This document shows, piece by piece, positions 5,588 through 22,197 of a DNA stretch of 22,197 nt; positions within the stretch are counted from its first letter, which is position 1, and every line of letters starts with the position of its first letter. Below the pieces are notes generated by a model. That model did no database searches, was not told the DNA's origin, and was given only the letters and a program-made list of their open reading frames with translations. Made by a program: the position numbers and the translations under genes. The DNA comes from Archangium sp. (GTDB lineage: Bacteria > Myxococcota > Myxococcia > Myxococcales > Myxococcaceae), in contig JAEUJR010000725.1 in assembly GCA_016793585.1 (NCBI GenBank), forward strand, positions 1 through 22,197. The letters run 5' to 3'.

Positions 5588-6852
5588 CCTGGTGGAAAGC
5601 CCTCATCGCGCTCGCGATTCTCGGAGGCCTCGCGGCGATCACCGTCGCCGGCCTCAAGGAGCGCCCGCCGCCCGCGACCGAGGTGCAGCTCGGCACGGCG
5701 AAACGCGCGCCCATCACCCGGACCGTCACCGGCGCCGGCAAGGTGCAGCCCGCGACCACCGTGAAGATCAGCTCGAGCATCTCGGGCGATCTGATCGAGC
5801 TCACGGTCAAAGAAGGCGATCACGTGACCAGGGGCCAGGTGCTCGGGCGCATCGATCGCCGCCGCTTCGAGGCCAACGTTCGCCAGGCGCAGGCGGGCCA
5901 GAACGCCGCGAAGTCCGACGTGGCCACCGCACAGGTCGAGGTCGAGCGCACGCAGCGTGAACTCGAGCGGGTGCAGGGGCTCGCGAGCAGGGGCCTGTCG
6001 TCTCAGGCCGAGGTGGAGTCGGCCCAGTCGGCGCTCGCCGCCGCGAAGGCGCGAGTCGCGGCGCTGAACGATCGCGTCAACCAGCAGCAGGCGGTGCTCG
6101 ACGAGGCGCAGAACAACCTCGCCAAGACGACGCTCGTCTCACCCATCGACGGCACCGTCATCGAGCGCAACCGCGAGATTGGCGAGCGGGTGCGTGGCAG
6201 CGACTTCAACGAAGACGTCGTGATGTCGCTCGCGGCGCTGGCCTCGATGGAGGTGAAGATCGAGGTCGGAGAGCACGAGGTCGTTCATCTCGCGATGGAG
6301 CAGAAGGCCGACGTGAAGGTCGACGCGCTCGAGGGGCAGACCTTCGACGGCAGCGTCGTCGAGATCGCGCAGAAGGCGCTCATTCGCAACGCGGGCTCGG
6401 AGCAGGAGACGACCAGCTTCCCCGTCACCGTCGCGCTCACCTCGCGGCCGCCCGGCGTGATGCCCGGCATGAGCGCCGAGGTGCGCATCACCGCCGAGCA
6501 GCGCGAGTCGGCGATCGTCGTTCCGGTGCAGGCCGTCACGGTGCGCCCCGAGTCGTCGCTCAAGGACGCGACGGTGCCGGTCGAAGGCAAGCCGATCGAA
6601 GCGAAGGGCCGCACGGGCGAGCGGTTCGCCAAGGTCGTCTTCGTGGTGGGCAAGGATCAGAAGGTCACCCTGCGCCGCGTTCGTACCGGCATCGCGTCGG
6701 ACACCGACATCGAGATCCTCGAAGGCCTCGAAGAGGGCGAGCGCATCGTCGAAGGGCCGTACCGCACGCTGGCGAAGGAGCTCAAAGACGGCGACGCGGT
6801 CGAAGAGGTGAAGCCGGGGCAGGGCGGCAAGTTCAAGGGCAAGCGCGGCTGA
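5584..6852 (+). CDS. MacA/HlyD-type periplasmic adaptor (membrane fusion protein)
   Basis: 422 aa, ATG at 5584 overlapping the TolC stop (ATGA). An N-terminal membrane anchor ([19 protein letters not shown], about 6-24) is followed by the split lipoyl/barrel domain ([37 protein letters not shown]), a long helical hairpin (about 96-180, heptad-rich with many A/E/Q/R) containing [16 protein letters not shown], then the second lipoyl half ([17 protein letters not shown]) and beta-barrel and membrane-proximal domains ([27 protein letters not shown]). 'GLSSQAEVE..q' and 'SPIDGTVI' are classic MacA-type signatures. It should bridge the inner membrane ABC permeases and the TolC-like channel. A charged insertion after VVPVQAV (about 320-345) and a Lys/Gly-rich tail ([10 protein letters not shown]) are local peculiarities. 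It overlaps the ATPase gene by one base (TGATG). Confidence 0.94.
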
Positions 6853-7580
6853 TGACACCGGCTCCGGCACAGACGCTCATCGAGCTCGATGACATCGCCC
6901 GCGAGTACGTCGTGGGCGGAGAGACGGTGCGCGCGCTCGCGGGTGTCACCGTGCACATCGCGAAGGGCGAGTGGGTGGCGATCATCGGGCAGTCGGGCTC
7001 GGGCAAGTCGACGCTGATGAACGTGATCGGCTGTCTCGACACGCCGACCGCGGGCTCGTACCGCCTCAACGGGAAAGACGTGTCGCGCATGTCGGACGAC
7101 GCGCTGGCCGACATTCGCAACCGCGAGATCGGCTTCATCTTCCAGAACTTCCAGCTGCTGCCGCGTGAGACGGCGCTGGCGAACGTCGAGCTGCCGTTGG
7201 TCTACCGCGGCGAGCGCGCGAAGGCCCGACGGGAGCGCGCGATCGAGGCGCTGAAGAAGGTGAAGCTCGAGCACCGCATGCTGCACAAGCCGACCGAGCT
7301 CTCGGGCGGCCAGCGGCAACGTGTGGCCATCGCCCGCGCGCTCGCGGCCGAACCGTCGTTGCTGCTCGCCGACGAGCCCACCGGCAACCTCGACAGCGCG
7401 ACGGGAGAAGAGATCGTTCGGCTCTTCGAGGAGCTGCACCAGCAGGGCCACACCATCGTGCTGGTCACCCACGAGCCGAAGCTGGCCGCGCGCTGTCCAC
7501 GGGCGGTGCGCCTGTCGGACGGCAAGGTCGTCGGTGACGGGCCAGGAGCGCAGGTCGCCTACGCCGAGGTGCACACGTGA
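6852..7580 (+). CDS. ABC transporter ATPase, MacB/LolD type
   Basis: 242 aa, ATG at 6852. All catalytic motifs are present: Walker [10 protein letters not shown] (46-54), signature LSGGQ (150-154) followed by [10 protein letters not shown], Walker [13 protein letters not shown] with D174 and catalytic E175, and the switch histidine H207 (VTHE). The Q-loop lies in [20 protein letters not shown], which is typical of the MacB/LolD/FtsE branch. The ATPase is a separate polypeptide, unlike E. coli MacB where it is fused to the permease. It should power the two permeases encoded immediately downstream by mechanotransmission. Its stop overlaps the GTG of permease 1 (GTGA), so the ATPase and permease are likely made in balanced amounts. 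Confidence 0.96.
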
Positions 7581-8803
7581 GCCTTCGCATCGATCTCGTC
7601 GAGGGGGCGTCGATCGCCGTGCGCTCGCTCTTCGCGCATCGGCTGCGAACGGTGCTCACGGTGCTGGGCGTCGGCATCGGCGTGGCCACGCTGCTCGCGA
7701 TTCTCGGCATCACCCAGGGCCTCGACTCGTCGTTCGAGAAGCAGCTCGCGACGCTCGGCTCGAGCTCGGTCTTCGTCTCTCGGCAGCCCTGGGTTCAGCT
7801 CGGCAACTGGTGGGAGTTTCGCAACCGCAAGAACATCACCCTCGCGCAGGTCGAGGCGGTGCGTGCGCAGTGCTCGCTGTGTGACTCCGTCATTCCGATG
7901 GTCGACGACAACGCCGACGTGCAGTTCCTCGGCAACGAGCTGTCGCAGGTCGTCATCTCGGGCGCCTCGGAGGAGTGGCCGAAGGTGAACGGCTTCGAGG
8001 TGAGCCAGGGCCGCTTCTTCAACCAGACCGACGACGACAACCGCCGGCTGGTGGTGGTGCTGGGCGCCGACGTCACCGACACCTTGTTCCCCGGCGTGAG
8101 CCCGATCGGTCAGACGATGCGCATCGGCAAGAAACCGTTCACCGTCGTGGGCACGCTCGGGCGCAAGGGCAAGCTGCTCGACAGCTCGCAAGATCTCCGC
8201 GCCGTCATTCCCTTCAACACCTTCACCAGCTTCTTCGCGGGCCGGCGCAGCTACACCATCGGCGTCTCGGTGAAGAACCCCGATCAGCTCGACGCGGTGG
8301 AGGACGAGCTGGTGGGCGTGCTGCGGCGCGTGCGCAACACGCCCCCCGACAAGCCCGACGACTTCGCGATCAACCGGCCCGAGCAGCTCGCGAGCACGTA
8401 CCAGCAGCTCACCGGTGCGCTCTATGCGGTGGCCCTCGGCATCGGCTTCATCACACTGCTCGTCGGCGGCATCGGCATCATGAACATCATGCTCGTCTCC
8501 GTTCGTGAGCGGACGCGGGAGATCGGCGTTCGGCGGGCGCTCGGAGCCCGCAAACGCACCATCATCATTCAGTTCATGCTCGAGGCGATGGTGGTCTCGG
8601 CCGTCGGCGGCGCGCTCGGCACCCTCGTCGGGCTCGGCGGCGCCAAGATCGTCAGCCTCATCACGCCGCTGGCAGCGACCGTGAAGCCGCTCACCGTCGT
8701 CTTTGGGGTGGTCTTCGCGGCGCTCGTGGGGCTGCTCTTCGGAATCTGGCCCGCAGCCCGCGCCGCCAACCTCGACCCCGTCGAGGCGCTCAGGCAGGAG
8801 TGA
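7577..8803 (+). CDS. MacB/FtsX-type ABC permease 1
   Basis: 408 aa, GTG at 7577 (GTGA overlap). MacB-type topology: one N-terminal span ([20 protein letters not shown]), a large periplasmic domain of ~230 residues with the family segments ([39 protein letters not shown]), then three C-terminal spans ([60 protein letters not shown]). The coupling segment [20 protein letters not shown], which contacts the ATPase, is intact, and the C-terminus [17 protein letters not shown] is canonical. Specific feature: a C99-S-L-C102 pair in the periplasmic domain that the second permease lacks. Together with permease 2 it implies a heteromeric inner-membrane channel. Confidence 0.95.
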
Positions 8804-10053
8804 TCGTGTTCCGCGCCTTCGTCGACAACCTGCGTCTGGCGGCCGGAACGTTCCTCGCGCACCCGCTGCGTACGGCGCTCACGTTGCTCGGCATCATCAT
8901 CGGCGTCGCCACCGTCATGACGATGATGGCGCTGCTCGAGGGCCTGCGGCTCAAGGTGAACAAGGATCTCTCGCAGCTCGGCGCCAACGTCTTTCGCGTC
9001 GACAAGTGGCCGCAGGGCTTCCGCATCGGCGGGGGCGATCGCATCAACTGGAACAAGATCGCCGCGCGGCCGGTGCTCACGCTCGACGACAAACGCGCGA
9101 TCGCCGAGCAGTGCCCGTCGGTGAAGCGCACCAGCGCGTCGTCATGGCAGCCGGCCCAGCGCGTGCGCACCGCGATGACCGAGACGCAGGCGAACGTCTT
9201 CATCCTCGGCACCACCGTCGAGTACCCCGACACCTCGGGCGTCGTCGTCGCCACCGGCCGCTATTTCAACGAGCAGGAAGATCTCGACGGCCGTCAGGTC
9301 GCGGTGCTGGGGCCCGACGTCGCCGACAAGCTCTTCCCCAGCCTCGACCCGCTCGGCCAGGAGGTGCGCCTCAAGGGCCGGCCCTACACCGTCGTCGGTG
9401 TGCTCGAGCGGCGCGGCAAGGTGCTCGGTCTGTTCAACCTCGACAACCAGGTCATGGTGCCGATGACGACGTTCCTCTCGCTCTACGGCAAGCGGCGAAC
9501 GGTCTCGATCAGCGTCGAGGCGAAGAGCCAGGAGATCTTCGAGCCGGCGATGGAGGAGGTCTCTCGCCTCATGCGGCAGCGCCGCAAGCTCGCGCCCGAC
9601 GAAGACGACAACTTCGAGGTGTCGACGAACGAGTCGATGGCGAAGACACTCAACGATCTCTCGAAGGTGATCACCGCCGCGACGTTCGGGGTGTGTCTGC
9701 TGTCGCTGCTCGTCGGCGGCATCGGCATTCTCAACATCATGCTGGTGTCGGTCTCGGAGCGAACGCGGGAGATCGGTGTGCGCAAAGCGCTCGGTGCGCG
9801 GCGCTCCCGCATTCTCTGGCAGTTCGCGACCGAAGCCGTGACGCTCTCGCTCGTCGGCGGCCTCATTGGGCTGGGCTCGGGCCTGGGGCTGGCGGCGCTG
9901 GGTCGGTGGGCGCTCGGGCTTCACACCGCGGTGCCGATCTGGGCGGCGGCGCTCTCACTCGCGATGAGCTCGGGGGTCGGGCTGGTCTTCGGCATCTACC
10001 CCGCGGCCCGCGCCGCCCGGCTCGATCCCGTCGACGCCATGCGCGCTGAATAG
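8800..10053 (+). CDS. MacB/FtsX-type ABC permease 2, paralogue of permease 1
   Basis: 417 aa, GTG at 8800 (GTGA overlap with permease 1). Same fold and segment order as permease 1: first span LRTALTLLGIIIGVATVMTM, periplasmic segments VAVLGPDVADKLFPSLDPLG and [40 protein letters not shown], coupling helix [20 protein letters not shown], and C-terminus PAARAARLDPVDAMRAE. It is clearly homologous to permease 1 but divergent across the periplasmic domain (it has a WPQGFRIGGGDRINWNK segment where permease 1 has [13 protein letters not shown]). One ATPase with two distinct FtsX-like permeases resembles LolC-LolD-LolE rather than a MacB homodimer. Last gene of the operon; a 122-bp gap separates it from the first giant lipoprotein gene on the same strand. 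Confidence 0.94.
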   Translation: MIVFRAFVDNLRLAAGTFLAHPLRTALTLLGIIIGVATVMTMMALLEGLRLKVNKDLSQLGANVFRVDKWPQGFRIGGGDRINWNKIAARPVLTLDDKRAIAEQCPSVKRTSASSWQPAQRVRTAMTETQANVFILGTTVEYPDTSGVVVATGRYFNEQEDLDGRQVAVLGPDVADKLFPSLDPLGQEVRLKGRPYTVVGVLERRGKVLGLFNLDNQVMVPMTTFLSLYGKRRTVSISVEAKSQEIFEPAMEEVSRLMRQRRKLAPDEDDNFEVSTNESMAKTLNDLSKVITAATFGVCLLSLLVGGIGILNIMLVSVSERTREIGVRKALGARRSRILWQFATEAVTLSLVGGLIGLGSGLGLAALGRWALGLHTAVPIWAAALSLAMSSGVGLVFGIYPAARAARLDPVDAMRAE

Positions 10054-10141
10054 CCTCGAAATTCGGCAACCCCTTGAATCAACGGGGCAGGGTGTCGTCT
10101 AAGGGCGCCGCTCTTGCGGTTCTGCGCCATTTCAGGTGTTT

Positions 10142-10151
10142 GTCGTACGAC
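10142..10151. promoter_or_regulatory. 10-bp palindrome upstream of lipoprotein gene 1
   Basis: GTCGTACGAC is a perfect 10-bp palindrome lying 11 bp before the Shine-Dalgarno (gggag, 10163-10167) of the first giant lipoprotein gene. It is the only obvious symmetric element in the 122-bp gap 10054-10175. It could be a regulator site, but a single short palindrome is weak evidence. Confidence 0.25.
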
Positions 10152-10175
10152 GTCCGACTTCTGGGAGCCTCATCC

Positions 10176-13100
10176 GTGAACTCACTCAAACTGTTCCTCT
10201 TCGCCGTCGGGCTGTCGGTCGTCGCCTGTACGCCGCCGGTGCGGCCCTGCAGCTCGGCCACGTGCTCGACGGGCTGCTGTGACGCGAACGGGCAGTGCCA
10301 GAGCGGCAACTCGGTCACGGCCTGTGGTGCGCAGGGCAACGAGTGCCGCACCTGTTCGACGACGCAGACCTGCAACAGCGGCCAGTGCACGATGCCCAAC
10401 AACATGGGCGGTGGCGGCGCGGGCACCGCGGGCGGTGGCTCGGCGGTGGGCGGCGGCCAGGCTGGCTCGATGGGAGGCGGCGCGGCGGGCGGTCAGGCGC
10501 TGACCTGCGCCAACGGCCTCACGCTGTGCGGCACCTCGTGCATCAACACCGCGACCGACTACGGCAACTGCGGCGCCTGCGGCCGCTCGTGTGGCGTGGG
10601 CCAGTATTGCTCCGGCAGCACCTGTCTGAACGTGCCGACGTCGTGCACGCCTGGCCCCAACGCGTGCCCCACCAACTTCTTCTGCGACGCGATCACCAGC
10701 AAGTGCGTCTTCGGCTGCCAGACGAACGCGCACTGCAGCAACGGGCAGATCTGTGACACCCAGCGAAACACGTGCGCCTGCCCGACGGGCTCGAACCTGT
10801 GCGGCGGCTCGTGTGTTCCTGCGAACACGCCGACGGCTTGTGGCTCCCAGTGCCTCTCGTGCAGCGGTGGCCCGAACTCGATTCCGTCGTGCACCAACGG
10901 CACCTGCGACTTCACCTGCATGGCGGGCTACCACCGCTGTGGCAACTCGTGCGTCTCGAACTTCGACGCGATGACGTGTGGCACGCGCTGCACGGCGTGC
11001 CCGGCGCTGCCGAACGCCACGGCGATCTGTGACGGCAACGACTGCGGCTCGCTGTGCTCGCAGGGCTTTCACCAGTGCGGGGCCGACTGCGTCTCGAACT
11101 TCGACGTCGCGACCTGCGGCAACAGCTGCACGCCGTGTCAGGCGCCTGCGAACGCCGTCGCCCAGTGCATGTCGGCCGGGGCCGGTCAGCCGCCCGCCTG
11201 TACCTTCCAGTGCAACCCGGGCTTCGTGCGCTGCGGCAACGCCTGTGTCGCGGAGTCGATCACCGCGTGCGGTGCCTCGTGCCAGACGTGCACGCCGCCG
11301 GTGGGCGCGACGAACCCCCAGTGCGTGAACGGCGCGTGCCAGTACACGTGCGCGGCGAACTTCCACCAGTGCGGCACCCAATGCGTGACGAACACCGCGG
11401 TGGCGACGTGCGGCACCCTCTGCACGCCATGCCCGGCTCCGGTGAACGGCACCGCGACGTGCAACGGTACGGCGTGCGGCATTCAGTGCAACGTCGGGTA
11501 CCACGAGTGCAACGGCCAGTGCGTCTCGAACTTCTCCACCAGCACCTGCGGCAGTCGGTGTGCGCCTTGCCCTGACGGCCCGGTCGGCAGTGGCACCACG
11601 GTCACCTGCGACGGCCTCAACTGCGGCCTGCGATGCGCCTCGGTCTCGACGCCGAACTACTGCGGCAACGTCTGTGTCGCCGACTCCATCACCTCGTGTG
11701 GGCCCAGCTGTCAGACCTGCACGCCGCCGGCGAACGGCACGGCGACCTGCTTCAGCGGAGTCTGCGACTTCACGTGCCAGTCTGGGTACCACCGCTGCGG
11801 CACGCAGTGTGTGGCTGACAGCTCGGTCGACAGCTGCGGTACCTCGTGCTCCGCGTGCCCGGCCGGCCCGCCCAACACCACCACCACCTGCACCCGCGCC
11901 ACCGCGACGGCCCCCTACGCCTGCGGGTGGGACTGCGGCGCCGGTACCAACCGCTGCCCTGCGGGCGGCTCGCAGTGCGTGCCCTCGGACTACACGCTGG
12001 CGTGTGGCCCGACCTGTGCGGTCTGCTCCTCGACCGTCGCGAACGAGCGCGGCATCTGCGGCACCAACGGCATCTGCAGCACCGGCTGCATCACCTCGTG
12101 TGGCGGCGGCTGCGTGAACGCCCAGACGAACACCACCCACTGCGGCACCTGCAACAACACCTGCGCGGTCGCCGATCGCTGCACGCAGGGCGAGTGCCGT
12201 ACCTTCTGCGCCAGCGGCGTGGGGCTCTCGTCGATGGTGCCCTCGGTGACGACCTCGACGTCGACGTTCCCCTTCCTGGTGATCGACGTGAACGGCGACG
12301 GCCGCAACGACCTCGTCACCGGTGAAGGCACCTCCGTTTACGTGCGGCTCGGCCTGGCGAACTCGAGCGGCACCGGCCCCTCGGGCACCTTCGGCGCGCC
12401 GACATCGTACTCTGTGAGCTACACGGTGGCGCAGCTGGTCGCGGGCGATCTGACTGGCGACGGCCGCCCCGAGATCGTCGCGCTCACCAACTCGTACTAC
12501 CTCTCGGTGCTGCGCAACTCGGGCACGGGCACCTTCACCGCGTACCTGACGTCGCTCTCGTACACGCCCACCAGCGCGACCATCGGCGAGTTCAGCGGAG
12601 CCGCGCCGGCCGATCTCTTCGTCAGCTTCAACACCACGGCGGTGACGGCACCCCTGTTCGTCGGCAACGGCGCGGCGTCGGGCAACCCGATCACCACCAC
12701 TGCCACTGGCGGCGTGGGGCTGGGCATCGGCACCGTGTCGAACGTGCGCGCACTGTCGGCCAACGCCGACGCCAACAGCGACGTGCTGGCGACCGCGGCG
12801 ACGAACGCGATGTACCTGTACCTCGGCACCGGCACGGCGACGGCGCCGGTGAACTCGGCGGGCGCGGTGCTGCAGCAACTGCCTGCCGGAGAGACCTTCA
12901 CCTCTTCGGCTGCCGGCACGGCCTTCATGATGGAGGTCGCCGACGTCACGGGAGACTCCATCGCCGACGTGATCGTGCCAGTCGTCTCGGGCGCGACCTC
13001 GGGCGTGCGCGTCTACCCCCTCACGTCGACGCCCGCCTTCGGCACCTCGACGCTGCTCTCGTTGCCTGCGCCGGCGCGCATGATCATCGCCTCGGACGTC

Positions 13101-14711
13101 AACGGAGACGGCCGGCGCGACGTCGTGGTCGCCTCCTCCGACGTGCGCGTGTTCCTCGGCCAGGTCGGCGGCACGTTCTCGGCCGCCCAGGTGCTCGGCA
13201 TTCCCTTCGCTGCCACGTTCTTCAACTCGCTCGCGGTGGCCGACGTGACGGGTGACTCGAGGCCCGAGATCTTCGCGCCCTCGGGCACCACGATCGTCAC
13301 CGCCGTCAACAACGGCAGCGGCGGCTTCACGGGAATCACGGGCACGGGCGTGGGCAACGCCAACCGAATCGCCGCGGGCGATTTGAACGGAGATGGCATC
13401 AGCGACGTCGTGGCGACCGGGCCGGGCATGCTCCAGTACACGGGCCCCGACGCGCGCCTCATCGACCCTGTCTCGCTCACGGCCGGCACCGTTCGTGGCC
13501 GGCTCGAAGTGCTGGTCAACGGCGTCTGGGGCCCGGTGTGCGCGCCTTCGTTCCCGTCGTCGACCACCATGAGCGTGGCGTGCACGTCGGTCGGCCTGAG
13601 CTCGTGGTGGAACTACTTCTACGCCACGCCGTCGGCCCTGCCGCCGGTGATGAAGAGCCCGTCGTGCAGCACGACGACCCAGACCGGCCTCAGCGTGTGC
13701 TCGTTCGTGCCCCCTGACACGGCTTGCACCACCGCCAACCAGCTCGGCATCGAGTGTCAGACCTCGACGACCTTGAACACCGACACCTCGAGCACCGTGC
13801 TGTACGGCGCCTCGAACGGCACCTTCACGACGGGGACCACCTTCCCCACGCGTGGAGATCGCTTCGCCATCGGCAACCTCAACGGAGACGCGCCCCAGGA
13901 TCTCGTCACGGCAGCGCTGGGCACGTTCGACGGCGGCATGGGCAACGTGATCGAGGTGCGGGTGGGCGCCACCAACTCGACCCTCAGCCCGCCGCTCAAC
14001 CTTCCGGCGCGCGCGGTGCCGACCTTCATTCTCATCGCCGAGGTCTCGAACGACGCCAACCAGGACATCGTCGTGGGCTCGAGCCTGGGCGTCGACGTGT
14101 ACAAGAACCTCGGGGCAGCCACCTTCGCGCCGCCGCTCACCGTCTACACGGGCGGCGTCTCGAGCCTCGCGGTCGCCGACTTCAACCTCGACGGCCGCCG
14201 TGATCTCGTGGTCGCTACGACCGCCTTCAACCAGCTCACGCCGCTGATGAACGTGGGTCTGCCTGGCACCGCCGGCTTCCTGGCAGGCACGGCGATCTAC
14301 CCGGCGACGGCGACGAACTTCAGCGTGCTGGCGGCCGATGTCACCTACGACGGCAAGCCCGACCTGCTCTTCGGCCGCTACGTGTACCAGGGCAACGGCT
14401 CGGGTGCGTTCACGCTCTACAGCTCGAGCATGCCGATTCAGCCGCCGCGGCAGGTGCTGCTCGATCTCGACAACGATGGCTCGCTCGATCTCGTTGGAGC
14501 GGGCAGCGCGAGCTCGGTGTTGTCGGTGCTGCCTGGGACGTCGACGACGACGTTCGGCTTTGCCAGCACGCCCAACGGCTACTCGTCGGGCGCGGTCGTC
14601 GAAGACGTCGTCGCGGCGAAGATGAACGCCGACGCGCAGCGCGATCTCATCGTGCTGCAGGGGCCCTCGGGCAGCCGGTCGATCATCGCGACGCCCGGCG
14701 TCTGTCGCTGA
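10176..14711 (+). CDS. Giant Cys-rich/FG-GAP lipoprotein with degenerate SRCR domain (paralogue 1)
   Basis: 1511 aa. I chose the GTG at 10176: Shine-Dalgarno gggag 8 nt upstream, and it gives a clean lipoprotein signal MNSLKLFLFAVGLSVVAC with lipid cysteine C18. The open frame extends upstream to 10074 without a signal. Order: conserved module TPPVRPCSSATCSTGCC; Gly-rich linker (about 75-108); a Stig1-like unit (LTLCGTSC...GNCGACGRSCGVGQYC); nine 8-cysteine repeats (202-634); a second Stig1-like unit; then from about 700 to the end about 14 FG-GAP/VCBS repeats with Ca-loop motifs such as DVNGDGRNDLV. An SRCR-like domain (about 1093-1195) interrupts them after the eighth repeat; it keeps six cysteines but has CAP and KSP where SRCR domains have CDD and DDV. 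Probably outer-membrane or surface anchored, binding an unknown ligand. The next gene is a paralogue of nearly the same length. Confidence 0.93.
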   Translation: MNSLKLFLFAVGLSVVACTPPVRPCSSATCSTGCCDANGQCQSGNSVTACGAQGNECRTCSTTQTCNSGQCTMPNNMGGGGAGTAGGGSAVGGGQAGSMGGGAAGGQALTCANGLTLCGTSCINTATDYGNCGACGRSCGVGQYCSGSTCLNVPTSCTPGPNACPTNFFCDAITSKCVFGCQTNAHCSNGQICDTQRNTCACPTGSNLCGGSCVPANTPTACGSQCLSCSGGPNSIPSCTNGTCDFTCMAGYHRCGNSCVSNFDAMTCGTRCTACPALPNATAICDGNDCGSLCSQGFHQCGADCVSNFDVATCGNSCTPCQAPANAVAQCMSAGAGQPPACTFQCNPGFVRCGNACVAESITACGASCQTCTPPVGATNPQCVNGACQYTCAANFHQCGTQCVTNTAVATCGTLCTPCPAPVNGTATCNGTACGIQCNVGYHECNGQCVSNFSTSTCGSRCAPCPDGPVGSGTTVTCDGLNCGLRCASVSTPNYCGNVCVADSITSCGPSCQTCTPPANGTATCFSGVCDFTCQSGYHRCGTQCVADSSVDSCGTSCSACPAGPPNTTTTCTRATATAPYACGWDCGAGTNRCPAGGSQCVPSDYTLACGPTCAVCSSTVANERGICGTNGICSTGCITSCGGGCVNAQTNTTHCGTCNNTCAVADRCTQGECRTFCASGVGLSSMVPSVTTSTSTFPFLVIDVNGDGRNDLVTGEGTSVYVRLGLANSSGTGPSGTFGAPTSYSVSYTVAQLVAGDLTGDGRPEIVALTNSYYLSVLRNSGTGTFTAYLTSLSYTPTSATIGEFSGAAPADLFVSFNTTAVTAPLFVGNGAASGNPITTTATGGVGLGIGTVSNVRALSANADANSDVLATAATNAMYLYLGTGTATAPVNSAGAVLQQLPAGETFTSSAAGTAFMMEVADVTGDSIADVIVPVVSGATSGVRVYPLTSTPAFGTSTLLSLPAPARMIIASDVNGDGRRDVVVASSDVRVFLGQVGGTFSAAQVLGIPFAATFFNSLAVADVTGDSRPEIFAPSGTTIVTAVNNGSGGFTGITGTGVGNANRIAAGDLNGDGISDVVATGPGMLQYTGPDARLIDPVSLTAGTVRGRLEVLVNGVWGPVCAPSFPSSTTMSVACTSVGLSSWWNYFYATPSALPPVMKSPSCSTTTQTGLSVCSFVPPDTACTTANQLGIECQTSTTLNTDTSSTVLYGASNGTFTTGTTFPTRGDRFAIGNLNGDAPQDLVTAALGTFDGGMGNVIEVRVGATNSTLSPPLNLPARAVPTFILIAEVSNDANQDIVVGSSLGVDVYKNLGAATFAPPLTVYTGGVSSLAVADFNLDGRRDLVVATTAFNQLTPLMNVGLPGTAGFLAGTAIYPATATNFSVLAADVTYDGKPDLLFGRYVYQGNGSGAFTLYSSSMPIQPPRQVLLDLDNDGSLDLVGAGSASSVLSVLPGTSTTTFGFASTPNGYSSGAVVEDVVAAKMNADAQRDLIVLQGPSGSRSIIATPGVCR
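10779..12077 (+). repeat. Nine tandem 8-cysteine repeats in lipoprotein 1
   Basis: Residues 202-634 hold nine units of about 43-52 residues with the pattern C-x3-[GN]-[FYH]-x-C-x3-C-x8-C-x3-C-x2-C-x6-8-C-x3-C. Examples of starts: CMAGYHRCGNSC, CSQGFHQCGADC, CNPGFVRCGNAC, CNVGYHECNGQC. Eight cysteines per unit suggest four disulfides, so the stretch is probably a rigid extracytoplasmic stalk. Unit 7 lacks the G-[FY]-H core (CASVSTPNYCGNVC), and unit 9 is the most divergent. Confidence 0.85.
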
Positions 14712-14807
14712 CGCGGGTACAGGTTCTTCCCCATGGGTCTTGCGGCGGTGTGCCCTTGATGGCACGCACGCCTCTGGCCGCCGTTTCTTGTCGTGGGGAA
14801 ACACCTC

Positions 14808-17800
14808 GTGAACCTCTTTCGCCTCGTCGTGCTCGCCGCCGTGCTTCCGGTGGCGATGCTGTCGTGTACGCCGCCCGTTCGCCGCTGCTCGGCGGCGACC
14901 TGCAGCTCCGGTTGTTGTGACGCGAACGGTGAGTGCCAGTCGGGCAGCGGCATCGCGGCCTGCGGCTCCAACGGCAACGAGTGCCGAACCTGCAGCACCG
15001 GGCAGACGTGCCAGAGCGGGCAGTGCACCACGACGATGATGGGCGGCGGCAGCGCGGGGGGCGGCAGCGCGGTCGGGGGCGGGCAGGTCGGCGACGGCGG
15101 CATGGGCGGAGGCACGGGCGGCGGCGGAGAGATGATCAGCTGCTCGGCAGGCCTCACCCTCTGCAGCGGCTCGTGCGTCAACACCCGCTCCGACTTCGGC
15201 AACTGCGGCATGTGTGGCCGGGGCTGCGCGGCGGGCCAGTACTGCGACAACAGCCAGTGCACGCGGCTGCCGACGATGTGCACGCAGACGCCCGGCTCGT
15301 GCCCGCCCAACTACTACTGCAACGCGAGCAGCACGTGCGCCTTCGGCTGCCAGACGAACACCAACTGCTCGGGCGGCCAGATCTGCGATCAGACGCGGAG
15401 CCAGTGCGTCTGTCCGGCGAACACGAACCTGTGCGGAGGCAGCTGCGTGCCGCCGACGACGGTGACGGCGTGCGGCTCGAGGTGCCTCAACTGCGCTGGC
15501 GTGGCGAACGCGACCCCGACGTGCAGCGCGGCGGGCACCTGCGACTTCACCTGCAACGCGGGCTACCACCGGTGCGGCAGCCAGTGCGTCTCGAACTTCG
15601 CGACCGAGACCTGCGGCACCAGCTGCACCGCGTGCCCGGTGGCGCCCAACTCGATGGCGACGTGTGACGGCAACGTCTGCGGGCTGCAGTGCTCGACGGG
15701 CTTCCACCAGTGCGGCAACGACTGCGTCTCTGACTTCGATGTCGCCACCTGCGGCGCCCGCTGTCAGCCCTGCGCCGTGCCGGCCAACGCAGTCGCGCAG
15801 TGTCTCTCGTCGGGTGCAGGGCAGCCGCCGGCGTGCCAGTTCCAGTGCAACCCGGGGTTCGCGCGCTGTGGCAACTCGTGCGTCCAGGAGTCGGCGACGT
15901 CGTGCGGAGCTTCGTGCCAGACGTGTACGCCGCCCGCCGGCGCCACCAACCCGCAGTGCGTGAACGGCCAGTGCCAGTACACCTGTGCGACGGGCTTCCA
16001 CCTCTGCAACTCGGCCTGCGTGTCTGACACCGCGTTGTCGTCGTGTGGCACCTCGTGCACGCCGTGCCCGGTGCCGGTGAACGGAACCGCGAGCTGCAAC
16101 GGCACCACCTGCGGCATTCAGTGCAACACGGGCTTCCACGAGTGCAACGGCCAGTGCGTCTCGAACTTCTCGGTCGCCACCTGCGGCAATCGCTGCTCGG
16201 TCTGCCCCGATGGCCCGATGGGCAGCGGCACCACGACGACGTGTGACGGGGTGAACTGCGGCCTGCGGTGCGCGTCGACGGCGACTCCGAACTTCTGCAA
16301 CAGCATGTGCGTGGCCGACTCGATCTCGTCGTGCGGCCCCTCGTGTCTGACGTGCACGCCGCCTGCGAACGCGACGGCGGCCTGCGTGACGGGCGTGTGC
16401 GACTTCACCTGCAACTCGGGCTTTCACCGCTGTGGCATGCAGTGCGTCGCCGACAACTCGGTCGACGGCTGCGGCACGGCCTGTACGCCCTGCGCCGATG
16501 GCCCCGCGAACTCCACGCGCACCTGCACGCGGCCCTCGCCGACGTCGCCCTACGCCTGCGGGTGGGACTGCGCGGCCGGCAACAACCGCTGCCCCGTCGG
16601 CGGCATGCAGTGCGTGCCGGCCGACTACGTGCTGGGCTGCGGCCCGACCTGCGCGGTGTGCAGCAGCGCGACGCCCAACGAGCGCGGCATCTGCGGCACC
16701 AATGGCATCTGCTCGACGGGCTGCATCACCTCGTGCGGTGGCACCTGCGTCAACACCCAGACGAGCACCTCGCACTGTGGCGCCTGCAACACGGCGTGCG
16801 CTGGCGCCGATCGGTGCAGCCAGGGCGAGTGCCGCGCGTTCTGCGCGAGCGGCGTCGCCTTCCGCACGATGCTGCCGGTGATCAGCGCCTCGACGTCTTC
16901 GAGCTTCCCGATGCTCGTCGTCGACGTGAACGGTGACTCCCGGCCCGATCTGGTGACGGCCGAGAGCTCGGTCATCTCGGTTCGGTTCGGGCAGGCCTCG
17001 GGTGGGTTCTCGCCGACGGCGTCGACGACGGTGAGCGCCAGCGTGACGCCCACCTTCCTGGTCGCCGGCGATCTCACGCAAGACGGGCGGCCCGAGCTCG
17101 TCGCCATCGGCAGCTCGACGTTCGCGGCCGTGCTGCGTAACAACGGGTCGGGCTCGTTCACGAACTATGCGGTGACGGCAAACCCGCTCGCGACCTCGCT
17201 GGTGCCCACGAGCGTCACCATCGGCGAGTTCAACGGCGCTGCGCCGGCCGACGTGCTCTTCGGCTTCAACACCAGCACCGCCGCCCAGGCCGCCATCTTG
17301 TTCCCCGGCGTGGTCGGCAGCACCACGAACCCGATCTCGATCGGCGCGTCGGCGAACATCGGCATCAGCCTGATCACGAACCTGCGCGCGGTGAACGTGA
17401 ACGGCGACAGCAACACCGACGTGGTGGCGACGGCCGCCACGAACGCGATCTACCTGTTCCCCGGTACAGGCGTGCAGGCGAGCCCGTTCAACACGGTCAG
17501 CGCCGCGCTCGCGCAGTTGCCGGCCGGAGAGACGTTCGTCACCACCCAGGGCACTCCATTTCCCGTCGAGGTGGGCGACGTGACGGCAGACGGCGTGGCC
17601 GACGTCGTGGTGGCGAGCACGGTCGGCGGCGGCTCGTTCTCGGCGCGCGTCTACCCGATGACGGCCGCGGTCGCGTTCGGCACCAGCGCCGCGCTCGCCG
17701 CTCCTGCGGCGGTGAAGGTGATCTCGCTCGCCGACGTGAACCAGGACTCGCGCATCGACGTCGGGGTGGGCTCCTCCGACTTGCGCATCTTCCCTGCGAT

Positions 17801-19346
17801 GACGATGGGCACGTTCGGCTCGGCGCAGGTCGTCGGGGTCAGCGTGACGAGCACCAGCCCGCAGTCGCTCGTGCTCGCCGATCTCACCGCCGACAACCGC
17901 CCCGATCTCACCAGCCAGAGCGGCTCGACCATCGTGACGGTGCCGAACGAGGCGGGCACGTTCCCCGCGCTGCAGGGCGTGAGCGTCGCCAACGGTGATC
18001 GCGTGGTGACCGGAGATCTCAACGGCGACGGGTTCGGAGACGCGGTCGTGACGCCCGCCACCGCGACGGTGATGAACGCCGAGGTCTTCTTCGGCAGCGC
18101 GAGCGGCGGGTTCACGGTTGGCCCGGTCATTCCCGTGCGGGGTGAGCGCGCCGCCATCGCGAAGCTGAACGGCGACACCTTCGGCGATCTCGTGACGATC
18201 GCGCTCGGCCCCGACGCCAGTGTTCCCGACGGAGGCGTGAACCCCAGCTCACCCGACATGCGCATCGTCGAGACCACCACGACCGCGACGACGATCACCG
18301 GCCGCATCGAGGTGTTCCGCGCAGGAGGGTGGGGCACGGTGTGCGACGACGTCTGGCCGGTCGCGAACACGGTCGTGACGTGCCGCGCGCTCGGCTACTC
18401 CGAGGTCGGCGCGTTCATGGTCAGCCCGGCCGGCACGCGGCCTGGCACCTTGCCGATCCTGATGGACGACGTGAGCTGCGTCGGCACCGAGTCGAGCCTG
18501 CTGGGGTGCTCGTACATCACCGCGCACAACTGCTCGCACTCCGAAGACGTCGTGATGACGTGCTCGACGGTGGGCATCGTGCCGACGGTGCCGACCGCGG
18601 TCGAGGTGCGCTTCGGCTCGGCGGCAGGAACGTTCAGCGCTCCCGTGCAGTTGACGACGCCCACCTCGGCCACGCTGGTGGCCACGGGAGATCTCAACTC
18701 CGACACGAACGTCGACGTCATCGTCAGCACCGCCACGACGCTGCACTGGTTCAGAAACCTGGGTTCCGGCTCGTTCGCGGCGGCAGCGCCGATCGGGTCG
18801 CAGGGCGCGAGCTCGGTGGCGGTCGTCGACGTGAACAACGACGGCCGGCTCGACGTGCTGGCGGTGAACCCCGCGTTCGTCACCATGACGCCGTTCATCA
18901 ACGTCGGCGGCGGCTTCGTCGCGGGCACGGCGGTTTCGCTGAGCGGCGCCACGGGCACCAACATCACGGCGGCCGATCTCAACAACGACAGCAAGATCGA
19001 CTTCGTGGTCGGTGGGCGCCTGTACCGCGGCGATGGCAGCGGTGGCTTCGTGTTCCAGGCGACGCTGACGACGCTGCCGGCCCGCACGGTGCTGCTCGAT
19101 CTCGACAACGACTCGGCGCCCGATCTCGCCGCGGGCGGTGGAGGCAGCTCGGTGCTCTCGGTCCTGCGTGGTGACTCTCTGGCGACGAGCGCCTTCACCA
19201 CCGCTCCCATCAACTTCAGCGCCGGAGCGCCGATCGCCGACGTGGCCCCCATCACGCTCAACACCGACGCGCAGCGCGATCTCGTCGTGCTGCAGGGTGC
19301 GCCGGGGGCCCGCTTCCTCGTCGCGTTGCCGGGCGTCTGCCGCTGA
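14808..19346 (+). CDS. Giant Cys-rich/FG-GAP lipoprotein with canonical SRCR domain (paralogue 2)
   Basis: 1512 aa. GTG at 14808, with gggga 8 nt upstream (14795-14799). The signal MNLFRLVVLAAVLPVAMLSC places the lipid cysteine at C20. Same order as paralogue 1: TPPVRRCSAATCSSGCC module, Gly-rich linker, Stig1-like unit, nine 8-Cys repeats (202-635), second Stig1-like unit, then from about 700 about 14 FG-GAP repeats (e.g. DVNGDSRPDLV, DLTQDGRPELV, DLNGDGFGDAV). The SRCR domain at about 1151-1253 is textbook: GRIEVFRAGGWGTVCDDVW, TCRALGYSEVGAF, LPILMDDVSCVGTESSLLGC, HNCSHSEDVVMTC, with six cysteines (group A pattern) and the acidic CDD, DDV and HSED residues. It lies after the ninth FG-GAP repeat, one later than in paralogue 1. 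Both proteins end GVCR. Likely a surface-anchored binding protein; ligand unknown. A 96-bp gap separates the two genes, so co-transcription is possible. Confidence 0.94.
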   Translation: MNLFRLVVLAAVLPVAMLSCTPPVRRCSAATCSSGCCDANGECQSGSGIAACGSNGNECRTCSTGQTCQSGQCTTTMMGGGSAGGGSAVGGGQVGDGGMGGGTGGGGEMISCSAGLTLCSGSCVNTRSDFGNCGMCGRGCAAGQYCDNSQCTRLPTMCTQTPGSCPPNYYCNASSTCAFGCQTNTNCSGGQICDQTRSQCVCPANTNLCGGSCVPPTTVTACGSRCLNCAGVANATPTCSAAGTCDFTCNAGYHRCGSQCVSNFATETCGTSCTACPVAPNSMATCDGNVCGLQCSTGFHQCGNDCVSDFDVATCGARCQPCAVPANAVAQCLSSGAGQPPACQFQCNPGFARCGNSCVQESATSCGASCQTCTPPAGATNPQCVNGQCQYTCATGFHLCNSACVSDTALSSCGTSCTPCPVPVNGTASCNGTTCGIQCNTGFHECNGQCVSNFSVATCGNRCSVCPDGPMGSGTTTTCDGVNCGLRCASTATPNFCNSMCVADSISSCGPSCLTCTPPANATAACVTGVCDFTCNSGFHRCGMQCVADNSVDGCGTACTPCADGPANSTRTCTRPSPTSPYACGWDCAAGNNRCPVGGMQCVPADYVLGCGPTCAVCSSATPNERGICGTNGICSTGCITSCGGTCVNTQTSTSHCGACNTACAGADRCSQGECRAFCASGVAFRTMLPVISASTSSSFPMLVVDVNGDSRPDLVTAESSVISVRFGQASGGFSPTASTTVSASVTPTFLVAGDLTQDGRPELVAIGSSTFAAVLRNNGSGSFTNYAVTANPLATSLVPTSVTIGEFNGAAPADVLFGFNTSTAAQAAILFPGVVGSTTNPISIGASANIGISLITNLRAVNVNGDSNTDVVATAATNAIYLFPGTGVQASPFNTVSAALAQLPAGETFVTTQGTPFPVEVGDVTADGVADVVVASTVGGGSFSARVYPMTAAVAFGTSAALAAPAAVKVISLADVNQDSRIDVGVGSSDLRIFPAMTMGTFGSAQVVGVSVTSTSPQSLVLADLTADNRPDLTSQSGSTIVTVPNEAGTFPALQGVSVANGDRVVTGDLNGDGFGDAVVTPATATVMNAEVFFGSASGGFTVGPVIPVRGERAAIAKLNGDTFGDLVTIALGPDASVPDGGVNPSSPDMRIVETTTTATTITGRIEVFRAGGWGTVCDDVWPVANTVVTCRALGYSEVGAFMVSPAGTRPGTLPILMDDVSCVGTESSLLGCSYITAHNCSHSEDVVMTCSTVGIVPTVPTAVEVRFGSAAGTFSAPVQLTTPTSATLVATGDLNSDTNVDVIVSTATTLHWFRNLGSGSFAAAAPIGSQGASSVAVVDVNNDGRLDVLAVNPAFVTMTPFINVGGGFVAGTAVSLSGATGTNITAADLNNDSKIDFVVGGRLYRGDGSGGFVFQATLTTLPARTVLLDLDNDSAPDLAAGGGGSSVLSVLRGDSLATSAFTTAPINFSAGAPIADVAPITLNTDAQRDLVVLQGAPGARFLVALPGVCR
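15411..16712 (+). repeat. Nine tandem 8-cysteine repeats in lipoprotein 2
   Basis: Residues 202-635 hold nine units matching those of lipoprotein 1 unit by unit. For instance, unit 3 of both carries the insertion AVAQC.S.GAGQPPAC, unit 6 of both reads GIQCN.G.HECNGQCVSNFS, and unit 9 of both ends NERGICGTNGIC. Units resemble their counterpart in the other protein more than their neighbours, so the array existed before the gene was duplicated. Confidence 0.85.
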
Positions 19347-19386
19347 GCGAAGGAACCAGCGGGGCAGGGCAGGCGTTCTCCGCGAC

Positions 19387-19968
19387 GTGCTGACGCTCGT
19401 GCTCCTCACGCTTGGGCAACTCGACGGAGGCTCCGTCGGCTCGGGCGTCGAGGCCTCGCTCGCGCTGCTGGGTACGCCCTACCAATGGGGTGGCCGGCTG
19501 CGGAAGCAGGAGGGCATCGACTGCTACGGGGTGGTGCTGGCTGCCGCCGAGCGCGCGTCAGGGTGCGGGTGGAGGTCGTACCCCGTGAAGCCGACCGAGA
19601 TCGTCGCCCAGCGCCTGTGGGGCACGCCGGTCGAGGGCCTCGCGCCCGTCTCGACGAAGGCGCTGACGCTGCAGTCGCTCGAGGCCGGCGACGTGTTGTT
19701 GTTGGTCGGGCCGACGCAGAACCCTGCCGAGCCTGCCATTGGAGCGCTCGAAGGTGTCGCGGTCTGGGTCTGGCACGTGGGGCTCTACCTGGGCGAGGGG
19801 CAGTACGTCGTGGGTGATCACCACGCTGGGAAGACGGTGATCACGCCACTGCTGCCGTACCTCGAGGCGCACCAGGACGAGTACTCGGGCGTCTTCGTCA
19901 CGCGTGGGCCAGCGACGAAGCCCACGAGGTGCCGCAAGCACGCGCCGCTCGCTCCGGCCCGACGCTAG
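19387..19968 (+). CDS. NlpC/P60-like cell wall hydrolase
   Basis: 193 aa from the GTG at 19387; the frame is open further upstream but overlaps the end of lipoprotein 2. NlpC/P60 enzymes are cysteine peptidases that cut peptidoglycan stem peptides or related bonds. The core is visible: LLGTPYQWGGRLRKQEGIDC with nucleophile C46 followed by YGVV, and the strand-loop WHVGLYLGEGQYVVGDHHAG with the likely catalytic histidine H130 and a possible third residue at H145/H146. SLEAGDVLLLVGP before it matches the family's 'l.pGDlv.f' strand. The N-terminus MLTLVLLTLG is a short hydrophobic leader without basic residues, so export is probable but not certain. It follows lipoprotein 2 by 40 bp and is convergent with the porin gene; both stop codons share CTAG. 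Confidence 0.8.
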   Translation: MLTLVLLTLGQLDGGSVGSGVEASLALLGTPYQWGGRLRKQEGIDCYGVVLAAAERASGCGWRSYPVKPTEIVAQRLWGTPVEGLAPVSTKALTLQSLEAGDVLLLVGPTQNPAEPAIGALEGVAVWVWHVGLYLGEGQYVVGDHHAGKTVITPLLPYLEAHQDEYSGVFVTRGPATKPTRCRKHAPLAPARR

Positions 19969-21188
19969 AAGGCGAGCTGCAGCTGCAGTCGAACCTGCCA
20001 GCTGCCCACGTCGAAGCGCTCACCGACCGGAAGCCAGAACACGTCGCTCTGCAGCTTGAGATCGTGCTTCTTCGGGTACCAGCCGACGCCGAGGCCGAGC
20101 TCGCGTTGGTGCTTGAAGCTCGGGTCGGTGCCCACGAAGGGCCGCAGCTGCGACCACCGCGCGCTCACCTCGAAGGACTTCACTGGCGAGTAGCCCGCCT
20201 GCACGAGGTAGCCCCAGCCCGCGCGCGCCCACTCGGTGGTGGTGGCTCCGACGAGCGAAGGCTGCTCGGCGTAACGGAGCAGCGCCTCGCTCTCGAGGGA
20301 GAAGCCGCGCCACTTGAAGATGAGATCGGCCCCCACGTGATCGTAGGTGAGCGAGCCGTTGTGAAACGTGGTGCCGATGGTGCTGCGTTGGCGAACGGTG
20401 GCGACGTTTCGCGCCGCCGCCAGCCCGATGGCGAGCCGGGGGTTCTCGAGGCGCTCGAGATCGCCGGCGACGAGGTCGTCGAACTTTCCGAACGGGCTCA
20501 CCTGGACTCGAGCCACGTAGAGCAGGCCCACGTTCGTTCCGAGCCGATTTCGACCATCGCCCCCCATCACGCCGAGCGCGTACGAGAGCCGCCCTCCGAG
20601 GCCGAAGAGATCGTCGCTGCGGAGCAGGGCGCCGACGTCACGATCGAGGCTCAGCTCTCCGATGATGATCGAGCGGTCGACCATCTGCTGGCTGCCCGAC
20701 GAGATCACGCGCTGGCGGCCGAACGGCACCTTCATCTGCCCGACGCGTACGTTGAGATCGCGCAGGCCCGACCAGGTCAGGTACGCGTCACGCAGCACGT
20801 TGGGAGCGTCGGACTCCATGTCGAGCGTCGCGAAGGCGAGCTGCACGTTCATCGTCCAGGCGTCGGTGTACTTCGCGACGAGGCTCAGGCGCGCCCGGCG
20901 AACGAGGATCTGGTTGATGCGCGCGACGGTGGAGCCGGGCATCGGCACTGCGGCTTCGGCGCGAACCTGCACGCGGCCACGCAGCTGCAACGAGAAGTCG
21001 CCCGACTTGAAGACGACGCCTTCTCCCCACTTCGCCTCGACGCTGGCAGGCGGCTTCCTGGCGTCGGGCGGGTGAGCGACCCCGGCATCGAACGTCACGC
21101 CCGCGTCGACTTCAGGTGCCGGCAGCGTCTCGACCCCCGCATCGACCTCCTGCGCGAGCACGGTCATCACCGCGAGTGTCACGATCAT
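19965..21188 (-). CDS. OprP/OprO-like outer membrane porin
   Basis: 407 aa if started at the ATG at 21188. The sequence has alternating amphipathic strands over ~350 residues and ends LQLQLAF, with the terminal phenylalanine typical of outer membrane barrels. The segment LRDAYLTWSGLRDLNVRVGQ followed by MKVPFGRQRVISSGSQQMVD is the phosphate-selective porin O/P family hallmark (rDay.....l..rvGq.k.PFg...). An Asp/Ala/Pro-rich linker (EVDAGVETLPAPEVDAG, VAHPPDARKPPASVEAKW) follows the leader. Starting at ATG gives a leader without basic residues (MIVTLAVMTVLA). An in-frame GTG at 21215 would add VTRRALSRD and make a more normal signal peptide, but I see no Shine-Dalgarno for either. Specificity for phosphate cannot be judged. 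Divergent from the UxxC lipoprotein gene. Confidence 0.85.
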   Translation of the reverse strand: MIVTLAVMTVLAQEVDAGVETLPAPEVDAGVTFDAGVAHPPDARKPPASVEAKWGEGVVFKSGDFSLQLRGRVQVRAEAAVPMPGSTVARINQILVRRARLSLVAKYTDAWTMNVQLAFATLDMESDAPNVLRDAYLTWSGLRDLNVRVGQMKVPFGRQRVISSGSQQMVDRSIIIGELSLDRDVGALLRSDDLFGLGGRLSYALGVMGGDGRNRLGTNVGLLYVARVQVSPFGKFDDLVAGDLERLENPRLAIGLAAARNVATVRQRSTIGTTFHNGSLTYDHVGADLIFKWRGFSLESEALLRYAEQPSLVGATTTEWARAGWGYLVQAGYSPVKSFEVSARWSQLRPFVGTDPSFKHQRELGLGVGWYPKKHDLKLQSDVFWLPVGERFDVGSWQVRLQLQLAF

Positions 21189-21293
21189 GTCGCGGCTCAA
21201 TGCCCGTCGCGTCACGAAGGAACCAGCAACATGTCCGTGGCGAGTCGCACGCTCGCGTTGCGGTCGCGTCACGGCGACGTCACACTGCGCGGC

Positions 21294-21698
21294 ATGATCC
21301 GCGTCACGTTGATCGCCGCGCTCGCGCTCGCAGGCTGCGCGAAGACCCACGCCCCGCGGCCTGGAGAGCCCGACGGCGAACAGGTCGTCGTCACGTACTA
21401 CTACTTGAAGTTCTGACGCGTCTGCGACGCGACGCGGGCCGCCGTGCGCGTGCTCGACAGCGAGTTTCAGGGAACGGTGACGTTCCGAACCGTCGAACAC
21501 CTCGAGCCCGAGGCGGTCGAGGCGGTGGCTCGCTACGGCTGGAACAGCCACGGCGCGGTCGGCTACCGAGGCAAGAAGCTCTTCTATCGGGCCGGCGATC
21601 ACCGGGTGAACGCCAACGACCTTCACGAACGGCTGCGGGAAGAGCTCGGGCTTCCGTTCGACTGTCGCGAGCTGGCTACAACAGACCGCGCGCCTTGA
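21294..21698 (+). CDS. Candidate selenoprotein: thioredoxin-like lipoprotein with U-x-x-C motif
   Basis: Reading through one in-frame TGA (21414-21416) gives 134 aa. MIRVTLIAALALAGC is a clean lipoprotein signal (lipobox LAGC, C15); a short linker follows, then VVVTYYYLKF, the UGA (residue 41), RVC (C44) and DATRAAVRVLDSEFQG, TVTFRTVEH, LEPEAVEAVARYGWNSHG, AVGYRGKKLFYRAGDHRVNA, DLHERLREELG. This is the strand-[C/U]xxC-helix-strand-helix-strand-strand-helix order of thioredoxin/glutaredoxin folds, with UGA exactly where the first active-site cysteine belongs. A hairpin fit for a bacterial SECIS follows. Without readthrough there would be a 40-aa lipoprotein plus an orphan 84-aa frame. No cis-Pro is seen before the third strand. 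An upstream in-frame ATG (21231) has a better Shine-Dalgarno (gaagga) but would lengthen the n-region. The 3' end overlaps the DUF58 gene by 23 bp. Selenium-insertion genes are not in the window, so the call needs the genome. Confidence 0.65.
21417..21458 (+). promoter_or_regulatory. Candidate bacterial SECIS hairpin after UGA
   Basis: Directly downstream of the UGA the RNA can fold into an imperfect hairpin from 21420 to 21458: GUC (21420-21422) with GAC (21456-21458), GC with GC, ACGCG (21427-21431) with CGCGU (21447-21451), bulged A21432, CGCGG (21433-21437) with CCGUG (21442-21446, one G-U pair), and tetraloop GCCG (21438-21441). That is about 15 pairs. The loop starts with G, 22 nt after the UGA, which is compatible with the loose bacterial SECIS consensus. 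High GC makes hairpins common, so this supports but does not prove recoding. Confidence 0.45.
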
Positions 21699-22197
21699 TG
21701 TCGAGGTACGCGTTCACGGCTGCGGGCCCGAAGGCCTTCGCGGGCGTTCTCACCACACGGGCGCCTGCGTCGCGCAGCCTCGCGACGGTGGTCTTCGCGT
21801 CGGTCTCGAGCTGGGCCGCGACCCGGCGGCGATGTGCGTCGAGCTCGGTGACCGGCATCATCGTCGCGGCGGCGTGCAGGGCCTCGTCCGACATGGAGGC
21901 GATCAAGGGCAGGTGCCTGGGCACGAGCCGTCGCGCTCGTTTGAGCAGCGCCTGCGCCGCGTCGGGATCGAGCAGGTCGGTCATCATCAGCACGAGCGTG
22001 CGTTTGGCGCCCTTCGAGAACGCGAGATCGATCGCGCCGCCGTAGTCGCTCTCTTCGAGGCTGGCGTCGACGCGGTAGAGCGCCTGGGCGATGGCGCGCA
22101 GCTGATCGGCGCCCTTCCGAGGCGGCAGCCAGGTCTTCACCTCGGTCGCAAATGCGATCACGCCGACGAGATCGCCCTGATCGAGCGACACCTTCGC
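21676..22197 (-). CDS. DUF58-family protein, C-terminal part (5' end outside window)
   Basis: At least 174 codons, open to the window edge at 22197; the stop is at 21676-21678. The visible part reads SLDQGDLVGVIAFATEVKTW, then GADQLRAIAQALYRVDASLE, AIDLAFSKGAKRTLVLMMTD (strand ending in the TDL segment), LLDPDAAQALLKRARRL and RHLPLIASMSDEALHAAA. This matches the von Willebrand A-like C-terminal domain of DUF58 proteins (D.vGlv.f...v; l.v..TDl.d......l..l...H.....l.d). DUF58 genes usually sit with a MoxR-type AAA ATPase and membrane vWA proteins involved in assembly or maturation of envelope complexes; the partners would lie beyond the right edge. The apparent GTG at 22191 is internal (the frame reads AKVSLDQGD from the edge). 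Confidence 0.85.
   Translation of the reverse strand, partial: AKVSLDQGDLVGVIAFATEVKTWLPPRKGADQLRAIAQALYRVDASLEESDYGGAIDLAFSKGAKRTLVLMMTDLLDPDAAQALLKRARRLVPRHLPLIASMSDEALHAAATMMPVTELDAHRRRVAAQLETDAKTTVARLRDAGARVVRTPAKAFGPAAVNAYLDIKARGLL

Follow-up and report, generated by a model that had tools for sequence, protein, structure and literature searches.

We analysed a 22,197-nucleotide (nt) stretch of DNA from Archangium sp. (contig JAEUJR010000725.1 of assembly GCA_016793585.1; "the window" hereafter means this whole stretch), in which a short reading frame is interrupted by one UGA codon that is probably read as selenocysteine (Sec, U). From the ATG at 21294, the frame contains a single internal TGA, at 21414-21416, and is then open up to the TGA at 21696-21698 (Table 1). 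When the internal codon is read through, the product comprises, in order, a signal helix, the lipobox LAGC, the strand VVVTYYYLKF, the motif U-R-V-C, and then further helices and strands. The initial annotation had interpreted the locus as a thioredoxin-like lipoprotein using Sec in a UxxC motif, and this interpretation is supported by the homologues at position 41, the Sec genes of relatives, a hairpin (with the reservations given below) and the predicted fold. Judging from sequence comparison, it is very likely that the gene encodes a small, putatively membrane-anchored thioredoxin-like myxobacterial protein with Sec at its active site, overlooked in annotation because the Sec codon looks like a stop. 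Since no upstream stop defines the start, ATG 21294 was chosen by reference to the lipobox and the relatives. The part of the gene after the UGA appears in a mechanical list of open reading frames (ORFs) as an 84-amino-acid (aa) ORF (21444-21698), the piece that gene callers would give, as had been predicted; the 40-aa lipoprotein predicted beside it is not listed as such, as the 5' part there forms the end of a longer ORF (19929-21416).

Table 1. Features of the putative selenoprotein gene (window coordinates; nt numbered from the T of the internal TGA)
Feature	Position	Strand	Remarks
Putative selenoprotein gene	21294..21698	+	134 residues if UGA is decoded as Sec; terminated by TGA 21696-21698
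Lipobox L-A-G-C	21327..21338	+	residues 12-15, with Cys15 as the presumed lipidation site
First core strand V-V-V-T-Y-Y-Y	21384..21404	+	residues 31-37; from the predicted model
Putative Sec codon UGA, first position of UxxC	21414..21416	+	residue 41; conserved in relatives
Codons +1 to +10	21417..21446	+	synonymous sites frozen
Cys44, presumed Sec partner in U-R-V-C	21423..21425	+	invariant in alignment A2
Candidate SECIS-type hairpin	21435..21456	+	nt 22-43; loop CGUGC 21443-21447; bulged U 21451
His86-Gly87	21549..21554	+	invariant in A2, with Gly at the aligned cis-Pro position of thioredoxin
Asp102-His103-Arg104	21597..21605	+	after strand 4 of the predicted model; invariant in A2

We then asked how widely the interrupted frame is conserved. 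Among 195 genomes of the phylum (Myxococcota), a homology search found the gene in 16, and a profile search returned the same 16. In 15 of these, TGA occupies residue 41, in the same alignment column and with coding similarity on both flanks; the TGA in frame is therefore more than chance, and the coherent protein that had been claimed on either side of it is confirmed. The remaining genome (G078, locus L045) carries TGT at this codon. A search for related loci gave six, all from metagenome-assembled genomes (Archangiaceae, Archangium, Myxococcales, Myxococcus and Myxococcaceae), and each of the six has the TGA at the corresponding codon. The window is collinear with locus L001 over 10.9 kb at 87% identity, and so derives from a close relative of genome G001. 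The gene was not found in viral contigs, and a plasmid search with one distant-branch member gave no match. A lone TGA in an otherwise open frame can also arise in a pseudogene or by sequencing error, and the six named relatives all come from metagenome assemblies. However, the same TGA recurs in 15 genomes, with 45-88% identity over the matched segments, and in the 16 UGA sequences compared (the window and 15 others) the protein is conserved against synonymous divergence on both sides of the codon. We thus give an accidental stop a probability close to nil.

A different account of the same frame would be two separate genes, one for a 40-residue lipoprotein and one for an 84-residue cytoplasmic protein. 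The public records could be read in this way, since all 21 matches of a first protein search were 78-91 aa long, that is, the later piece only of the window's subfamily, and GTG and ATG codons are present after the UGA. However, full-length Cys relatives continue without a stop, the N-terminal half carries the first strand of one predicted fold, the internal stop is UGA in every stop-bearing genome (15/15), and synonymous sites are frozen directly after it, all of which makes two genes extremely improbable. The database set consisted of 123 aligned relatives, namely the best 120 of 240 matches of one protein search together with earlier matches (P0035 was excluded). These proteins are mostly short and are called "hypothetical protein" wherever the source gives a name. 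The loss of the gene by standard annotation, as had been claimed, is apparent here: 107 of the 123 listed relatives begin after position 41, as seen from protein sequences in which the upstream codon is not in view. The other 16 span the position, with Cys in 15 and Ser in one (P0099), so that homologues have either TGA or Cys there save for this one distant relative. In a divergent branch, 16 database proteins (P0102, P0105, P0106, P0108, P0110, P0112-P0117, P0119, P0120, P0122, P0123 and P0125) begin immediately ahead of the second Cys (M-[VI]-C), as would be expected if a stop in frame lay directly upstream. P0099 is a full-length relative of this branch and also lacks the lipobox Cys; with P0117 as query, only the 16 known genes were recovered among the 195 genomes.

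The nucleotides following the UGA appear to be under a constraint of their own. In the 16 UGA sequences, 1053 of 1110 same-residue comparisons use the identical codon at codons +1 to +10, as compared with 1074/1755 upstream, 758/1265 at codons +14 to +30 and 2406/3946 beyond. The best ten-codon window elsewhere reaches a synonymous agreement of 0.77, and none of 200,000 permutations of near-invariant columns attained the observed freezing (p about 5e-6). In the window's group (eight sequences), the 45 nt from the TGA are identical. Between the Cys form and the UGA forms, synonymous agreement is 33/107 in codons +1 to +10 and 407/688 elsewhere.

This region may fold into a hairpin of the selenocysteine insertion sequence (SECIS) type, at nt 22-43, which we picked after viewing the sequences. 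It is intact in all 16 UGA sequences, with a 5-nt loop (CGUGC or CGUGA) and energies of -10.5 to -13.4 kcal/mol, and broken in the Cys form (+3.2). Moreover, in the second group (eight sequences, seven distinct) every hairpin cell pairs and two pairs change on both sides, a result reached by 10 of 500 shuffles. The published bacterial SECIS (bSECIS) model, as given in PMC13188914, has a loop of 3-9 nt, a stem of 4-16 bp, a G in the first two loop positions, a distance of 16-37 nt from the UGA and a minimum free energy of at most -7.5 kcal/mol; spacing (26 nt), loop (G at position 2) and energy of the proposed hairpin lie within these limits. A strict, unbulged version of the model hardly discriminates, as 8 of the 16 real sequences and 16-53% of synonymous-codon controls pass it, whereas the specific hairpin forms in 16/16 real sequences against 10-34% of the controls. 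The SECIS check suggested by the initial annotation gave a mixed outcome: a SECIS-type hairpin can form after the UGA in every sequence, but half of them fail the strict version and eight have a competing fold of greater stability. An Rfam search over 19000-22197 also gave a sub-threshold match to the flavin mononucleotide (FMN) riboswitch at 21459-21584 (22.7 vs 66.2 bits), which was taken as chance.

The genes for Sec synthesis and insertion were sought in the relatives' genomes, as had been proposed. SelA, SelD and tRNA-Sec were above cut-off in all six of the closest genomes and SelB in five; ARAGORN classified all six tRNAs as tRNA-Sec. Searches for tRNA-Sec, SelB and SelD covered these six together with G074 and G078, and the eight other UGA genomes were assessed by SelA alone. 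SelA was found in 14 of the 15 UGA genomes, and the exception, G074, has tRNA-Sec, SelB and SelD. In the Cys genome G078 (a 4.8-Mb assembly) there was no SelA match, and tRNA-Sec, SelB and SelD were all below cut-off or absent. UGA is the leakiest of the stop codons, and readthrough can be favoured by RNA structure downstream of a stop. An ordinary tRNA could therefore decode UGA 21414, or the downstream element could be a readthrough signal with another purpose, residue 41 then not being Sec. Such readthrough is nevertheless very unlikely, given that position 41 is Cys in 15 of 16 full-length relatives and Ser in one, without Trp or Arg, that Sec genes occur in 15/15 UGA genomes with none above cut-off in the Cys genome, that UGA also terminates the same gene in 17/17 sequences examined, and that four of these genomes have formate-dehydrogenase-like genes with an in-frame UGA, one above the family cut-off.

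The latter genes (L071, L078, L079 and L080, in genomes G148, G112, G077 and G075, respectively) encode a UHxP motif, and L071 is the one that exceeds the cut-off. They likewise combine an in-frame UGA with a possible hairpin, in an unrelated protein. The hairpin loop of L078-L080, GGUCU, has G-U at loop positions 2-3 in common with CGUGC/A of the window family, and lies 18 nt from the UGA compared with 26. GGUCU is presumably also the loop of Escherichia coli fdhF.

At the protein level, we used an alignment of 23 rows, including seven Cys forms (alignment A2). Cys15 of the lipobox is invariant in 23/23 rows, as are T34, Y35, Y37, L38 and Cys44. The predicted structure model has an N-terminal helix followed by a thioredoxin fold, in agreement with the thioredoxin-like character that had been claimed. 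The protein is thus putatively a lipoprotein, with signal helix and lipobox, anchored in the membrane and facing the periplasm. In a tree of the 23 proteins, the Sec/Cys label requires two changes or more. The five Cys proteins P0023-P0027 cluster together with support, inside a larger, weakly supported cluster that also takes in six UGA sequences, and P0031 and P0032 join L048; the placement of L047 and L048 is unsure because of their long branches.

Altogether, Sec insertion at UGA 21414 is strongly supported by comparison: the UGA is conserved, U and C exchange at exactly this residue, the Cys genome has no Sec genes above cut-off, the following codons are frozen and the hairpin can form in 16/16 sequences. 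We consider it highly probable that the gene encodes a selenoprotein in which Sec41 is inserted through SelB and the hairpin, and which is exported, lipid-anchored and active as a thioredoxin-fold UxxC redox enzyme; Sec insertion itself, hairpin use, lipidation, membrane side, chemistry, substrate and electron donor are the parts that we infer. At UGA 21414, the hairpin at 21435-21456 would hold SelB, which would supply the ribosome with Sec-tRNA(Sec), and Sec would be inserted as residue 41. The product would then be exported and lipidated at Cys15, leaving the thioredoxin-fold domain anchored on the periplasmic side. There, Sec41 may attack an oxidised substrate (a disulfide, peroxide or similar), Cys44 would resolve the adduct, giving a selenenylsulfide, and a thiol donor would reset the enzyme.

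Several observations weigh against this account. In the window's group the hairpin requires a bulged U, and in the eight closest sequences nt 1-45 have a rival fold that is favoured by about 1.4 kcal/mol over the first hairpin and the proposed one combined. The minimum-energy fold of nt 1-45 contains the proposed hairpin in 7/16 sequences only, and part of it in L048, and RNAalifold favours other hairpins (nt 4-18 and nt 20-33). The lipobox Cys is absent from 3 of the 16 full-length database relatives, all distant. The evidence for Sec genes comes from the genomes of relatives; UGA genome G002 has no SelB above cut-off and UGA genome G074 no SelA. Since SelA is common in the phylum (above cut-off in 150/195 genomes), its presence in UGA genomes is partly expected. 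Finally, the Cys-form genome checked is a single assembly (G078), which may be incomplete. The two hairpins favoured by RNAalifold were themselves rejected: they show no both-side changes and are broken in some sequences (90.9% of cells paired).

Instead of a disulfide reductase, the selenoprotein might be a peroxidase, a sulfoxide reductase or a metal(loid)-handling protein. The invariance of H86, G87, D102, H103 and R104 in A2 and the Gly aligned with the cis-Pro position would suit such chemistry, but the CxxC of the Cys forms and the plain thioredoxin fold suit disulfide exchange too; we regard this as a serious possibility that falls somewhat short of an even chance.

The window family differs from thioredoxin (PF00085) in its URVC motif, in the Gly at the cis-Pro place (from the sequence profile only), in the HG and DHR motifs and in the lipoprotein signal. 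We take WCGPC to be the thioredoxin motif and the aligned Pro before strand 3 to be the cis-Pro. The window protein gave no match to PF00085, and the best of six Cys relatives scored 17.5 bits against a gathering cut-off of 23.5. A Sec form of thioredoxin, Trx UxxC, is listed in the table of a 2026 review (PMC13188914) and shares UxxC with the window family; Table 1 of that review also gives UxxC for SaoT (NF040730), HUIPC (NF047660), GOS_C (NF045500) and DsbG-like (NF041057). When five family members were scanned against NCBIfam (E up to 10), no selenoprotein model was among the matches, these four included. In the 119-family table of the review (PMC13188914) no such family was recognised by name or motif. 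Among papers pairing selenium with Myxococcota or myxobacteria, none on such a selenoprotein was found, judged by titles and abstract openings. We rate the family as new but of a known kind, the thioredoxin-fold selenoproteins; it would add one to the 119 of the review table (PMC13188914). We give an even chance, lowered by the lack of a lipobox in distant relatives, to a wider view: a large uncatalogued family of envelope-anchored thioredoxin-fold selenoenzymes whose active site departs from that of thioredoxin (Gly in place of cis-Pro; conserved His86 and Asp-His-Arg close to the selenol), extending perhaps beyond Myxococcota through the divergent branch described above, with many members mis-annotated as short hypotheticals and at least two exchanges of Sec and Cys. 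The natural Sec/Cys pair of closely related enzymes would allow a test of what selenium buys at the cell envelope, and the relatives that start after position 41 show how such genes drop out of annotation.

In the window's group, the gene is flanked by a Porin_O_P gene (divergent) and a DUF58 gene (convergent), and in L002 the next gene encodes a MoxR ATPase; no same-strand neighbour that could be an operon partner was found in this group. In three second-group genomes, the selenoprotein gene overlaps at its end with an ORF of 539-548 aa on the same strand, a possible operon partner (L087:8613-10232, L089:8471-10117 and L093:6624-8270). These ORFs are 49-60% identical to each other, and that of L087 has no Pfam match and so gives no clue to the substrate. 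On the minus strand of the window, the porin ORF (19965-21626) continues without a stop, antisense to most of the selenoprotein gene; in L001 this antisense part forms an ORF of its own and is therefore probably a high-GC shadow. Elsewhere in the window, two adjacent, very long and similar ORFs (10074-14711 and 14793-19346; 1545 and 1517 aa) have a Cys-rich first half followed by DVNGDGRxD-type repeats, and an ORF run at 4912-10053 resembles, by sequence appearance only, a tripartite efflux set (membrane fusion protein, ABC ATPase and two permeases).
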